Source: Sulfurovum sp.
Lineage (GTDB): Bacteria > Campylobacterota > Campylobacteria > Campylobacterales > Sulfurovaceae
Assembly: GCA_027045015.1 (NCBI GenBank)
Contig: JALUBF010000008.1
Span: 1-39,780, forward strand
Length of the DNA stretch: 39,780 nt
Direction of reading: 5' to 3'
The position numbers and the translations under genes were made by a program. Numbering within the stretch: position 1 is the first letter of the stretch; each line of letters opens with the position of its first letter. The notes beneath the pieces were generated by a model. It was given only the letters and a program-made list of their open reading frames with translations, did no database searches and had not been told where the DNA came from. Of this stretch, positions 6,146 to 13,421 are shown piece by piece.

Positions 6146-7846
6146 CTATTGTTTATCATCTATAGTTTTATCAAAATCCATAGCTTTTGTATTGTGCATA
6201 AGCACAGGGACAAAGATAAGAGATACAAATACAGCTGCGACTGTACCTGATATAAGAGCAACTCCCAATCCACCAAATACAGGGTCACTTGCAAGTAGTG
6301 CTGAACCTAAGATAATAGCTACAGCAGTCAGTGCAATAGGTTTAGCTCTAGTAGCAACAGCTACAGCAATAGCCTCTTTTTTCTCCATATTCTCATGTAT
6401 CATAAGTGACTTAGCAAAGTCTATAAGAAGGAGTGAGTTTCTTGAACTAATACCCATTAATGCAATAAACCCAATAAGAGATGTAGCCGTTAAAAAGAAG
6501 GTCTCACTTGTAAAGAAGTTTGCTACCCAGTGACCTACTATCACCCCAATAAGTGATAAAAATGAACCTAACAATATGATACCACTAATAGCAAAACTTT
6601 TATAGTAGATAACCAATAATAAGAATATCAAGATAAGTGCAGCTATAAATGCTCCACCAAGATCCCTAAATGTATCAAGAGTTACTTTCATCTCACCGTC
6701 CCAACGCAATAAGAACTTCTCACCAGTTTTCTTATCTGTCAAATATAGGTCAAACATATATGTACTAAATCCTGCTTTTTTTACTTTATAATCTTTTGAA
6801 AATTCTTTTATCATCATATCTCTAGCATCTAGTAGTGGATAGACTTGTGAAACCATATCTGTCTCAGCTGTAACATTTACCATTCTTGATAGATCTTTAT
6901 GCATAATCATAGGATTTGATTTTACTTTATGAATAGTAACTACTTCACTCAATGCTACCATCATACCTCTTTGATTCATAAGATTTAATTGAGATAGTTT
7001 ATTCTCTAAAGCCTCTTTATTTGATGAGTTTAAACGCTTAGTATTTTTATCTAAAACTAAAAACATATCTAATTGATCTGGCATATTTTTACTATTTTTA
7101 TGAGCTATAACCATACCTTCAAAAGCAAGATATAAAATATTGTTTACTTGCTTAACACTCAAACCACTTTTAGCAATCTTATCTTTATCTACTATCAGTT
7201 CATATTTATCAAAGATATCATCAGCCATAACATCTACATCTACCAAACCATCTGTTTTATTGAAGATATTTGCTACTTTTGTAGATATTTTACGTATTTT
7301 TTTCAAATTATCACCATGAACTTCAAGCACAATAGAAGCCAATGTTGGAGGACCTGCTGGTTGTTCTACAAACTGGATAATTGTCCCTTTAACCAAAGGA
7401 GTACAAGCTTTTTTTACTACTGGTCTAAGTCTGTGAGTTATAAGAAATGATGGCTCTTTTCTTTCATGCTTATCTGTTAAATTTACAGATATTTCAGATA
7501 CATTCTCTGTGTTTTTCATACTAGAACCTTTTACAAGACCAGCATAATCAAGAGGTATCCCTTGAGCTAAAAAGAGTTCAATATTCATTACCTCTTTCTC
7601 TTTTTTTAAGATATCAATAACACATTGACTAACTTTATTTGTCTGTTCTATAGAACTACCTGTTGGAGTATCTACATATATAGAGAATGTATTATCACTC
7701 TTTCCAGGGAGCATCTTTGCCAATACCATTTTAGTAGGAAACATCAGAAGTGAAGCAAAAAATGCAACAGCTGTCAATATGATGACTAAAAATTTCTTCT
7801 TTTTATCACTTAGTATGCCATAGATGAATTTTTCTAAACCTTTCAT
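6146..7846 (-). CDS. RND efflux permease, C-terminal half (second repeat)
   Basis: MFPTKMVLAKMLPGKSDNTFSIYVDTPTGSSIEQT..., GISSRNSLLLIDFAKSL, TRAKPIALTAVAIILGS; matches the second half of AcrB-type proteins. Confidence 0.9.
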   Translation of the reverse strand: MKGLEKFIYGILSDKKKKFLVIILTAVAFFASLLMFPTKMVLAKMLPGKSDNTFSIYVDTPTGSSIEQTNKVSQCVIDILKKEKEVMNIELFLAQGIPLDYAGLVKGSSMKNTENVSEISVNLTDKHERKEPSFLITHRLRPVVKKACTPLVKGTIIQFVEQPAGPPTLASIVLEVHGDNLKKIRKISTKVANIFNKTDGLVDVDVMADDIFDKYELIVDKDKIAKSGLSVKQVNNILYLAFEGMVIAHKNSKNMPDQLDMFLVLDKNTKRLNSSNKEALENKLSQLNLMNQRGMMVALSEVVTIHKVKSNPMIMHKDLSRMVNVTAETDMVSQVYPLLDARDMMIKEFSKDYKVKKAGFSTYMFDLYLTDKKTGEKFLLRWDGEMKVTLDTFRDLGGAFIAALILIFLLLVIYYKSFAISGIILLGSFLSLIGVIVGHWVANFFTSETFFLTATSLIGFIALMGISSRNSLLLIDFAKSLMIHENMEKKEAIAVAVATRAKPIALTAVAIILGSALLASDPVFGGLGVALISGTVAAVFVSLIFVPVLMHNTKAMDFDKTIDDKQ

Positions 7847-9453
7847 TATCTGCTCCCTTTATTGTGATGGTGTTTATGTTTTGGTTTTTTCAAGAGTTTT
7901 AAACTCAAATATGGAGTAAATATGTATGCTATAAACAAAGATGCAATCAATGCTACAGGTACATTATATGGGATAGGCTTCATAAATGACCCCATCATAC
8001 CACCAACAAATGCCATAGGAACCATAGTCAAGATAATAGCCAATGTTGCTACATTTGTAGGTGCTCCAATCTCATCTGTAGCCTCTACAACTATCTCATC
8101 CATCTCTTTACTATCTACATCATGTGCATGAAGATGTCTATGGATATTTTCAATAACAATAATAGCTGCATCGACCAATAGTCCTAAAGATAATAAAAAT
8201 GCAAATAGTGTAATCCTATTAATAGTCTGTCCTGAAAGATATGCTACAAAAAGTGTAATAGCTAAAATGGCAGGAACAGTAAATGTAACTATAATAGACT
8301 CTCTCCAACCAAGTGCAAATATAAGCATAATAGCAATAATAAGAATAGTTATAACAAGGTGATGCATAAGTTCATTAACAGCTTCATCTGCTCTAACTCC
8401 ATAATTTCTAGTAACTAAATAGCCTATACCCTCTTTTGCAAACTCTTTTTTATACTCTTTTAGTACTTTAATTACATCATCAGATACAAACACTGCATTT
8501 GTACCTGCTAACTTAGCAACAGTAAGTGTAACTTGACTCTTCTCTTTACTAAGCTTAGCATCTGCACTCTTTTTAAATAGTATATCTGCTGTTTGAAAAT
8601 TCTGAATATCAACACCTTCAGTAACGGAAGCTACATCTCTAAGATAGATAGCTGAACCCATATATTGAGCGACTATGATGGATTTAACATCTTTTATACT
8701 ATCTATAGCATTTTTTATACCAAATATGACTAATTTATTATCTTTTGTATGACCTTTAACATCAGGCACATCTACAGCTACAGATTGAACTGCTTTCATT
8801 ATTTGACCTAAAGATAGATGATAAGCTGATAATTTTTGCAAATCTACTTCAATATTATATTGAGCTTTTCTAGCACCTTTTAGTGTTGTTTTTGCTACAT
8901 TATCTATGGCATTTAGTCTTTCTTGTAGCTTACTTGCTATCTTATAGAGTTTTATATCATCAACATTACTTCCATCTTTTGCATAAAAAGCTACAGTAAG
9001 TATAGGAATATCTATATCAATATCAAAAGGTTTAATTATTGGTTGCATAACACCTTTTGGCATATCATCCATACTCTGCATTACTTTATCATAGAGTTTT
9101 AAGTTAGAAATTTCTCTATTTTGACCTATATAGTACATAACATTAACTATACCTACATTATTTTTAGCCATACCATAGATATGTTTAATACCCTTAATCT
9201 CTCTCATCTTACGCTCTAAAGGATTGATAATAACTTTTTCTATCTGCTTTGGAGTAGCTCCAGGCATAGCAACTATAATAGCCCCACCAGAGATAGCTAT
9301 CTGAGGATCTTCTTCTCTAGGCATAACATTTAGAGCTAAATATCCCATTATAAGAATGGTTGCTCCAAGCAAAGCAGTTAGAGGATTTCTTAAAAACCCT
9401 TTAGCCAACTTACCAGCATAATCCTTTACTTGATACTCTTTTTTTATACTCAT
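7846..9453 (-). CDS. RND efflux permease, N-terminal half (first repeat), His-rich C-terminus
   Basis: NVMPREEDPQIAISGGAIIVAMPGATPKQIEK, GLLVDAAIIVIENIHRHL; ends KKPKHKHHHNKGSR. Confidence 0.9.
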   Translation of the reverse strand: MSIKKEYQVKDYAGKLAKGFLRNPLTALLGATILIMGYLALNVMPREEDPQIAISGGAIIVAMPGATPKQIEKVIINPLERKMREIKGIKHIYGMAKNNVGIVNVMYYIGQNREISNLKLYDKVMQSMDDMPKGVMQPIIKPFDIDIDIPILTVAFYAKDGSNVDDIKLYKIASKLQERLNAIDNVAKTTLKGARKAQYNIEVDLQKLSAYHLSLGQIMKAVQSVAVDVPDVKGHTKDNKLVIFGIKNAIDSIKDVKSIIVAQYMGSAIYLRDVASVTEGVDIQNFQTADILFKKSADAKLSKEKSQVTLTVAKLAGTNAVFVSDDVIKVLKEYKKEFAKEGIGYLVTRNYGVRADEAVNELMHHLVITILIIAIMLIFALGWRESIIVTFTVPAILAITLFVAYLSGQTINRITLFAFLLSLGLLVDAAIIVIENIHRHLHAHDVDSKEMDEIVVEATDEIGAPTNVATLAIILTMVPMAFVGGMMGSFMKPIPYNVPVALIASLFIAYIFTPYLSLKLLKKPKHKHHHNKGSR

Positions 9454-9455
9454 TA

Positions 9456-10253
9456 TTATGACCTAATAAAAATTTTTGTATACATACCAGGGTATATAGA
9501 CTTATCTTTTTTATCGAAACTCATCTTAATCTTAAACTTGTGTGTCATAGGATTTGAACTTGGTATAATAGAAGTTATTTTACCTGTAGTAGTGAGATTG
9601 ATAGAAGGAATTTCAATTTTTACCTCTTTACCCAACTCAATATCTTTAAGTTGTGTCTCTGAAATATCAGCTATGATTTTTAATCTATCTAAATCAGTTA
9701 AGATAATAGCTGGCATACCAGGAGCTGCCATATCACCTTCATTCAATCTTTTAGATATAACTACACCATCATTTGGGGCTTTTATTTTGAGATAATTGTA
9801 TTGATTTAAAACATCTTCTTTTTGTGCTTTAGCTTGTTCTACTTGCTTTTTAGCAATAGATACCATATCTTTTAGATTTTTAGCAGCTAACTCCATACTC
9901 TCTAATTCAAATTTTGAAACCATTCTCTTTTTATATAATCTTTTATGACGTGCAAGATTTATCAAAATATTATTGTATTGATTCATATTCATCTGAAGAG
10001 CTAAACGAGCTTGAGATATACCAAGTTCAACTTGTCGTAATGATGAATCTATATCTTTAGAATCTATCTCATAAAGAAGTTGTCCTTTTTTAACAATATC
10101 ACCCTCATTAACAAGCATCTTTTTTACAAATCCCATATATCTACTAGTTAATATCTTCTGATTATCAGATACAACTGATCCACTTAACTCTATATCTACT
10201 GCATTAGCAAATGTCAATAGAGCTATACTCAATATAGTTACAATTTTCTTCAT
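9456..10253 (-). CDS. Efflux RND periplasmic adaptor (MFP/HlyD family)
   Basis: Signal peptide, lipoyl-like halves (VNEGDIVKKGQLLYEID ... IKAPNDGVVISKRLNEGDMAAPG), coiled coil, beta-barrel region. Confidence 0.9.
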   Translation of the reverse strand: MKKIVTILSIALLTFANAVDIELSGSVVSDNQKILTSRYMGFVKKMLVNEGDIVKKGQLLYEIDSKDIDSSLRQVELGISQARLALQMNMNQYNNILINLARHKRLYKKRMVSKFELESMELAAKNLKDMVSIAKKQVEQAKAQKEDVLNQYNYLKIKAPNDGVVISKRLNEGDMAAPGMPAIILTDLDRLKIIADISETQLKDIELGKEVKIEIPSINLTTTGKITSIIPSSNPMTHKFKIKMSFDKKDKSIYPGMYTKIFIRS

Positions 10254-10273: not shown

Positions 10274-11665
10274 CTATTTTAAAGCTTTTTTAACATTATA
10301 AACTTTTATAGTCTTCTCTTGATTTATCAACGCTTCAAGCTCAAATACTTTTGTATTTCTTTTATTTTTAGCTGTCAATGATTTTAAAAGTACTTCTAGC
10401 TCTTTAGACTGTTTTATCAAAACATCCGAGATAGATACCATACCCTCTTTATATCTAGCTTTGTAGTTTCTATATACTCTTTTGGCAAATCTTAACTGCT
10501 TCGCATAACTTCTAATATCTCCATTGGTACTCAAAATCTCTGTCTTAAGCTTTTTAGCTTTTAGTGCAATACCTTTTTTAGCTAACAATACCTGATTTGC
10601 AACCATAAGATAACGTACTTTTGCCTTTTCTAAATTTGCAAGATCTATACCACCATTAAATAAATTCATCTTAACCTGTACACCTACAGTATATGCATCT
10701 TTATCTCTAAAATCCTTAAATAAAACATCATTTGCACTACTATATTCTGCAAAAGCTCCTACAGTTGGAAGAAAATTTGATCTCTCAACATTAACAGCCA
10801 TCTTAGCTATCTTTTTCCCTAAAAGTGCCTTTTGAATATCTATATTTCTAGCTTCTAAAGATGCCTTTGTAATATGTGGCATTGGTACTCTATCACTAAC
10901 TCTTCTTATAGAACTCACATTTTTGTTAAGTAAAAATGATAAAAATTGATAGGCTAAATCTCTATTTAACTTAGCTTGATTGTACATACTCATAGCCTCT
11001 GCCTTACGAGCTTCCACTTCAAGAACATCAACATTTTTTGCATATCCCTCTCTTCTCATACTTTTTACAATATTGTTTAATTGTCTAATATTACGCATAA
11101 TTTTTGAAAGATTTGAGATATAGTGTTCTACTAAAGAGATGTCATAAAATGCTTTCTTAACTTGAAAAACTTTTTCATTTAGAAGCTTACGTGTATCATA
11201 TTTACTCATACGATATAGTGCATCAGTTATATGTCCATACTCACTTAATTTTCCACCAGTATAGATAGGCAAAACATATTTTAGTTTGGTTTGATAATGA
11301 TTTTTTGGATCTGGATAGTTTAAACTCTTTGGGGCAACAGGTAAAGGATTAGTCTTACCTGACATATCAAACTCAGAAAAACCAAAATCTCCAAAAGTTG
11401 CTTCACGACTTTGAAGTTTAAAACCAAATACATTTCCTGCATCATTTGAACGCATACCAGTAACACTAAGATCTAACTTACCATAGTTATGTCCTCTAGC
11501 AGCTTTAGCTTCATAAGATTTCATATTCTCTTTAAAACGTGCAACCTTTAACTCTAAGTTATCCTTTTTCAAGATATGAATAGCATGATTTAATGTTAAG
11601 TTTTTTATACCTGCAAATATTGGTATAGATATAATTGATATTAGAAATAACTTTCTAATGAACAT
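10274..11665 (-). CDS. TolC-family outer membrane efflux protein (start revised from 11704)
   Basis: Signal peptide MFIRKLFLISIISIPIFAG, outer membrane efflux domain pattern; SD TAGGAG before ATG. Confidence 0.85.
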   Translation of the reverse strand: MFIRKLFLISIISIPIFAGIKNLTLNHAIHILKKDNLELKVARFKENMKSYEAKAARGHNYGKLDLSVTGMRSNDAGNVFGFKLQSREATFGDFGFSEFDMSGKTNPLPVAPKSLNYPDPKNHYQTKLKYVLPIYTGGKLSEYGHITDALYRMSKYDTRKLLNEKVFQVKKAFYDISLVEHYISNLSKIMRNIRQLNNIVKSMRREGYAKNVDVLEVEARKAEAMSMYNQAKLNRDLAYQFLSFLLNKNVSSIRRVSDRVPMPHITKASLEARNIDIQKALLGKKIAKMAVNVERSNFLPTVGAFAEYSSANDVLFKDFRDKDAYTVGVQVKMNLFNGGIDLANLEKAKVRYLMVANQVLLAKKGIALKAKKLKTEILSTNGDIRSYAKQLRFAKRVYRNYKARYKEGMVSISDVLIKQSKELEVLLKSLTAKNKRNTKVFELEALINQEKTIKVYNVKKALK

Positions 11666-11708
11666 ATAGACTCCTAATAAAAGATTTATTGTAGTATTGA
11701 CCACATTA

Positions 11709-11726: not shown

Positions 11727-11800
11727 CAAATTGTATTGTATTTAATAATTAAAAAAAATATTTTATATAAATTTTTTTGAATAGTATAGTAGAAATTAAT

Positions 11801-11824
11801 CTTCGTAGTCTATGAACTACGAAG
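11801..11824 (-). terminator. serA downstream hairpin (CTTCGTAGT-6nt-ACTACGAAG)
   Basis: Perfect 9-bp stem, 8 nt after serA stop; poor U-tract. Confidence 0.55.
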
Positions 11825-11831
11825 AAAAATT

Positions 11832-13421
11832 TTAAAGTGTTGCGTAGCTTACACTAATGCAAGCCTCTAATGATGCAAGTGCATCTAAGATAGTTTTAGT
11901 TACTTTTCCATCAACACGCACTACTGCTAATGCTTGCTGTTTACTATCTCTACCCAATCTAAAATCAGATATATTAAGATTATTATCTGCCATAATTTTA
12001 CCAACATTACCAATAACACCTGGAGTGTCTGTATTACGGAAGAATATCATAGTACCTTTTGGCTCTACATCTAAAACATAATCATCTATCTCAATGATAC
12101 GTTGTACAGTATCATCAAATACTGTACCAGCAATAGTAATATTACCATCTATAGTTGTTAATTTAATAGCAACTTTATTTGTAAATCCAGAGTTATTTGG
12201 TTTTACCTCTTTAGCAATAGATATATCACGCTCTTTAGCCACAAATTCTGCATTCACATAGTTTATCTGATCGCCTAAAGATTCAGTTAAAACACCAACT
12301 GTTGCAAATGTCCCCATAGACTCAAGATAGTCAGATATTGGACCTTTAGCCATTACTTTTATAGACTTAACAGCCGATTTTGTAACTTGTGCAGATAGGT
12401 GTCCCATCTTTTGTATAAGTTCAAGATATGGTCTTACAAAATCAGGAAGTTCATTCTCTTTTATTGGTAAGTTTAGTGCATTTGGATAAGAGATTCCCTT
12501 TGCTGCCAATATAGCATTTTCAGCTGCTTGAATAGCAATATTTTTTTGTGACTCTTTAGTATTTGCCCCAAGGTGAGGAGTAACAGTAACATTATCAAGG
12601 TCAAGTAAAGGGTGGTTGGTTGCTGGTTCTTTGTTAAATACATCAATACCTGCTTTTGCTATCTTACCACTTTTTAACCCTTCTACAAGTGCCTCTTCAT
12701 TATATAATCCACCTCTAGCACAGTTGATAAGAATCACTCCATCTTTCATCTTAGCAATCTCTTCTTTATCTATCATTCCAATAGTTTCAGAGTTTTTAGG
12801 TGTATGAATAGTAATAATATCACATGCTAAAATATCTTCAAAATTTTTAGTATAAGCTATATCTAAATCTGTTGCTTTAGATGAATCAACATATGGATCA
12901 TAAGCTAAAACATCCATCTCAAATGCTTTTGCTCTCTTACCAACACGAGAACCGATGTTACCAAAACCTATAATTCCAAGTTTTTTATCTTTAAGTTCTG
13001 TTCCATACCAATCTTGTCTTCTCCAAACACGATCAAGTTTAAGATTGTTATGAGCATAAGGAAAACTTCTTGCACAAGATAGCATATGAGTCATTGTAAG
13101 TTCAACAGCTGCTATAGTATTAGCAGTAGGAACATTCATAATAACAATACCATTTTTAGATGAACCATCAATATCAACATTATCAACACCAACACCTGCA
13201 CGAACAACAGCAGTGACTTTTTTAGCAGATGCTAAAAAGGCATCATCTACATCTGTAGAAGAACGTGTAATAGCAACATCAGCTAAAGGAATAATATCTG
13301 AAATAAGTTTATCTTTTGGCTCATCTGCTGCATTTATAAACTCTATTTCACTATCATTAGCTAATATATCTAGCCCATCTTGATGAATATGGTCACAAAC
13401 AACAATTGTCTTTTTTGACAT
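11832..13421 (-). CDS. serA: D-3-phosphoglycerate dehydrogenase (long form, C-terminal ACT domain)
   Basis: VVRAGVGVDNVDIDGSSKNGIVIMNVPTANT, LGIIGFGNIGSRVGKRAKAF, INCARGGLYNEEAL, C-terminal ACT. Confidence 0.96.
   Translation of the reverse strand: MSKKTIVVCDHIHQDGLDILANDSEIEFINAADEPKDKLISDIIPLADVAITRSSTDVDDAFLASAKKVTAVVRAGVGVDNVDIDGSSKNGIVIMNVPTANTIAAVELTMTHMLSCARSFPYAHNNLKLDRVWRRQDWYGTELKDKKLGIIGFGNIGSRVGKRAKAFEMDVLAYDPYVDSSKATDLDIAYTKNFEDILACDIITIHTPKNSETIGMIDKEEIAKMKDGVILINCARGGLYNEEALVEGLKSGKIAKAGIDVFNKEPATNHPLLDLDNVTVTPHLGANTKESQKNIAIQAAENAILAAKGISYPNALNLPIKENELPDFVRPYLELIQKMGHLSAQVTKSAVKSIKVMAKGPISDYLESMGTFATVGVLTESLGDQINYVNAEFVAKERDISIAKEVKPNNSGFTNKVAIKLTTIDGNITIAGTVFDDTVQRIIEIDDYVLDVEPKGTMIFFRNTDTPGVIGNVGKIMADNNLNISDFRLGRDSKQQALAVVRVDGKVTKTILDALASLEACISVSYATL

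Follow-up and report, generated by a model that had tools for sequence, protein, structure and literature searches.

AcrB-type RND efflux pumps are treated as single-chain homotrimers. The window analysed here, a 39,780-nucleotide stretch of contig JALUBF010000008.1 from a Sulfurovum sp. genome, carries an efflux operon in which two consecutive open reading frames (ORFs) each correspond to one half of such a permease. This raises the question of whether a single pump gene appears broken through an error in the data, or whether the pump is genuinely made in two pieces. Our analysis indicates that the locus very probably encodes a proton-driven, AcrB-like RND pump whose permease is produced from two coupled genes that arose through one fission, and whose halves would pair into a trimer.

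The efflux operon and its permease halves

The four genes of the operon lie on the minus strand of the window, in the order outer-membrane protein, adaptor, N-half and C-half. The first gene (positions 10274-11704) encodes a TolC/OEP-type outer-membrane efflux protein (Pfam OEP, E=2.3e-41). It is followed by the gene for a 265 aa periplasmic adaptor, a membrane-fusion protein of the CusB/HlyD_D23 type (9456-10253; Pfam HlyD_D23, E=6.7e-29), which also matches NCBIfam RND_mfp above its cutoff. The RND permease N-half (535 aa; 7846-9453) comprises repeat R1, with TM1, a porter/docking part and TM2-TM6, and the C-half (566 aa; 6146-7846) comprises repeat R2, with an amphipathic helix, TM7, a porter/docking part and TM8-TM12. 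Among the 101 split loci with sufficient upstream sequence, the adaptor gene sits immediately 5' of the N-half in 86, and adaptor and TolC-type genes are both found upstream in 85; the gene organisation of a tripartite RND system is thus present. The TolC/OEP-type gene precedes the adaptor gene in most split loci, and likewise in loci where the permease gene is fused. On the minus strand of the window, a terminator-like hairpin (11800-11825) falls between a gene at 11832-13421 and the OEP gene, a short distance 5' of the latter. Transcription of the efflux operon may therefore start from a separate promoter; a promoter scan gave a signal at background level.

Both permease proteins match Pfam ACR_tran, the N-half over model positions 4-499 (E=1.7e-79) and the C-half over positions 527-821 (E=2.6e-47); other RND models account for what remains of the C-half. 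The C-half also matches NCBIfam RND_permease_2 (model 525-1003). In phmmer searches of the PDB, residues ~1-509 of solved full-length pumps align to the N-half and residues ~520-1030 to the C-half, in agreement with the original prediction that the two ORFs are halves of one pump, split at the internal-repeat boundary. AlphaFold2 models of the N-half and C-half have mean pLDDT values of 80.5 and 75.9, and their pTM values of 0.64 and 0.52, obtained for halves modelled in isolation, represent moderate confidence only. They contain six long membrane-type helices per half (6+6), with large loops between helices 1-2 and 7-8, and the C-half starts with a short amphipathic helix preceding TM7. Foldseek matched the N-half model to AcrD/AcrB and the C-half model to AcrB. 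By family match over both repeats, the permease is AcrB-like (HAE1/ACR_tran-type), but it is predicted to consist of two polypeptides. It departs in this respect from the single polypeptide of AcrB-type permeases: two ORFs are found in the window and its clade, and a single chain only in the outgroup clade.

The halves meet at a TAATG sequence (7844-7848, minus strand), in which the N-half stop codon TAA (7848-7846) and the C-half ATG (7846-7844) have one base in common; the minus strand at the junction reads ATCACAATAAAGGGAGCAGATAATG. A Shine-Dalgarno sequence, GGGAG (7853-7857, minus strand), is located 6 nt 5' of the C-half ATG, within the end of the N-half gene. The two half-gene ORFs, their coordinates and their motifs (GLLVDAAIIVIEN, N-half residues 424-436, and ISSRNSLLLIDF, starting at C-half residue 466), the 1-nt overlap and the GGGAG site had all been described from the nucleotide sequence beforehand, and each was borne out by ORF and residue positions or by the sequence of the junction. 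When a match of at least 4 bases is scored as a Shine-Dalgarno sequence, one is found ahead of 97% of C-half starts, compared with 12% of the ATGs inside the N-half gene, which served as background. Across 118 N/C pairs, an overlap of 1 nt is commonest (53/118), followed by 4 nt (35/118) and direct abutment (0 nt, 11 pairs), and the remaining junctions fall between -14 (overlap) and +13 (gap). That the C-half is translationally coupled to the N-half is the natural inference from this arrangement. At one locus (L208, G214:C5), a TAG stop alone separates the two halves, which share a reading frame; even so, no fused form was seen among the split-clade members surveyed.

Distribution and conservation of the split

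The window comes from a 72-contig draft genome that is 86% complete, which leaves room for an assembly or sequencing indel within a gene that is really one continuous ORF. The original prediction had argued for a real split rather than a random frameshift, and the relatives agree with it: every close relative with complete sequence, except L091, has the same two-ORF arrangement, and no close relative with one ORF across position 7846 was found. All 80 named relative contigs that we fetched carry the split, with separate stop and start codons in each and a Shine-Dalgarno sequence in almost every one. These contigs include Sulfurovum, Nitratifractor and other Campylobacterota records, among them Sulfurovum sp. 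AR (L097); the N-half is broken elsewhere in L091, and three contigs are cut by contig ends. The same split is present in single-contig genomes (G063, G064, G066 and others). In usable close-pair comparisons dN/dS was 0.04-0.10 for both halves, with one C-half comparison saturated. These values, well below 1, rule out a pseudogene and indicate that both halves are under strong purifying selection. An assembly error is refuted by the relatives carrying the same split, and the chance that the window merely records an indel in one draft genome is close to nil. In L091, itself a draft genome, the N-half ORF ends after ~305 residues and the C-half is intact, which could be a sequencing error or a decayed copy.

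A close C-half match was detected in 162 of the 175 genomes of the window's family, and the open frames listed for these are half-length. Across the order (399 genomes), the N-half was found in 275 genomes and the C-half, or its fused equivalent, in 277. Comparison of both lists gave 272 genomes with both, 3 with the N-half only and 5 with the C-half only, and the one-half cases are mostly drafts. In a sample of 20 genomes, mostly without detected halves, a C-half match occurred in a single genome (G175), where the N-half is fragmentary too.

Proposed working of the two-piece pump and its counterparts

The proton relay of AcrB brings together residues from both repeats, D407 and D408 from the first and K940, R971 and T978 from the second (PMC4359379). 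By alignment, the D407 position corresponds to Asp428 in TM4 of the N-half, and the K940, R971 and T978 positions correspond to Arg469, Arg500 and Thr507 of the C-half. All four residues are invariant in 118/118 pairs, and the relay residues are also invariant in 17/17 fused relatives. The relay differs from that of AcrB because the D408 position is mostly Ala (in the window and 108/118 rows, with Asp in 9 and Ser in 1) and the K940 position is Arg (118/118, and in fused relatives too). Since the relay residues are divided, with Asp in the N-half and Arg, Arg and Thr in the C-half, the halves would need each other, and N-half and C-half should work as a pair.

We propose that the ribosome completes the N-half and that the C-half is translated from the same mRNA, either by re-initiation or from a new start at the internal Shine-Dalgarno sequence, so that both would probably be made in similar amounts. 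The two half-proteins, with six membrane helices each, would pair in the membrane. Their pairing would bring the N-half TM4 Asp, present in the sequence, opposite the TM10 Arg and the TM11 Arg and Thr of the C-half, and so rebuild the proton relay. Three N+C pairs, the simplest arrangement, would form a trimer that, judging from homology, docks with the operon's own adaptor and TolC-type channel.

Two other readings of the paired genes have to be weighed against this scheme. Recoding at the junction, by programmed frameshifting or stop-codon readthrough, would produce one long protein and leave the pump a single chain, and it could be argued from the fact that most junctions overlap by 1 or 4 nt and that in 17/118 pairs the halves are in one frame with a stop alone between them. 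Recoding should hold the junction to one frame, but all three relative frames are used (92, 17 and 9 pairs), as are all three N-half stop codons (58 TAA, 46 TGA and 14 TAG). The junction lengths are similarly spread, the Shine-Dalgarno sequence and start codon are kept, and inspection by eye of the junctions in the 118 pairs revealed no common slippery site. Because overlap, frame and stop codon vary between lineages, we judge a recoded, single-chain product to be very unlikely. Two free chains could also, in principle, separate in function, each half forming its own homo-oligomers or one half working with another partner. We found nothing that directly supports such a separation, and the halves nearly always co-occur, adjacent and in unchanged order, with complementary and invariant relay residues. 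Trees of the N-halves and C-halves agree on the paralogue clades, also where a genome has two copies, and their distances correlate (r=0.945); each N-half therefore stays with its own C-half. Functionally independent halves are thus a highly improbable outcome.

A pump with a comparable cut has been engineered: MexB divided artificially at the N-terminal end of helix I-alpha, between TM6 and TM7, is functional (Eda, Yoneyama and Nakae 2003, in PMC4359379). Both are the same kind of RND cut, in the TM6-TM7 linker, and because the C-half starts with an amphipathic helix, the natural cut lies at about the MexB split site. Unlike the engineered MexB split, the present one is natural and apparently ancient, is conserved in many genera and has an evolved start site. 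SecD/SecF is a natural RND heterodimer of 2 x 6 TM, known in fused and separate forms (PMC8277102, PMC4139356), and resembles the window permease as a natural two-gene form of the 12-TM RND fold. It is, however, a protein-export accessory from another RND family and not a tripartite efflux pump. SecD/SecF membership was rejected for the window proteins, which match ACR_tran; the NCBIfam scores of the N-half were far under the cutoffs (28.6 bits vs 500; 20.5 vs 160). MdtB and MdtC likewise provide an RND pump from two different gene products, but each is a full-length 12-TM protein, in contrast to the half-proteins of the window pump. Together they form a heterotrimer (PMC8277102). With the HAE1 pumps AcrB, MexB and AdeJ, the window permease shares its sequence family and fold, an operon with adaptor and channel, the TM4 Asp and the TM11 Arg and Thr. 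Those pumps consist of one ~1050 aa chain that forms a homotrimer, whereas the window permease comprises two chains, and the split clade differs from them at the D408 and K940 positions. A search of titles and abstracts, largely of open-access literature, turned up no naturally split or half-size AcrB-type RND efflux pump, which does not prove that none has been described.

A natural, ancient and widely kept two-chain pump would show that the repeats need no covalent connection, and would favour the model of R1 and R2 as separate rigid modules. Labels, mutations or swaps could be confined to one repeat, and the proton-coupling model could then be tested directly. Annotators should keep the two genes separate and not describe them as pseudogenes or truncated pumps. 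More speculatively, a large Campylobacterota clade may use an obligate six-chain RND pump (three N and three C), in which each repeat can move, be regulated or be swapped independently; on this view the split would be adaptive and maintained, not a neutral accident, and the pumps would form an unrecognised tripartite class. We regard this broader proposal as possible, though on balance doubtful.

Origin of the split and additional copies

The same order also contains single-chain homologues, 1071-1234 aa long, with 38-52% identity over the N-half (L194-L206, L213 and others). They are the closest unsplit homologues, with one continuous ORF and mostly the same operon order, and were found only at ~52% N-half identity or lower; close relatives with complete sequence are all split. 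We built a tree from 61 split, 17 fused and 2 outgroup proteins. In it, the split proteins share one branch (SH-aLRT 100) that contains no fused protein; the outgroup branches are very long, which makes the position of the root uncertain. This topology suggests that a single-chain gene was divided once, long ago, within Campylobacterota, with no re-fusion seen among the surveyed members. The direction, fission rather than fusion, rests partly on the remaining family being single-chain. Channel, adaptor and permease genes follow one another in this sequence in most fused relatives too, and the division therefore appears to have affected the last gene of an inherited operon. Our comparisons thus go beyond the original prediction: they suggest that the split extends across the order, arose once and lies near the site at which MexB was divided artificially.

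Extra split copies were found at L185-L188 and L225-L227. A second, paralogous split RND pair occurs at L185 (3130-6659), and also at L186, L187 and L225-L227. The L185 halves, which overlap by 4 nt, adjoin a histone-deacetylase-like gene (6724-7647), and an adaptor gene (2072-2917) and a FadL/TodX-type outer-membrane gene (649-1905) are located on the opposite strand. The copy at L188 (G116:C16:39462-50015), from the same genus as the window, is a divergent split form with ~49% N-half and ~44% C-half identity. In the tree it clusters with copies found in families f8 and f6; transfer or an old duplication could explain this placement.
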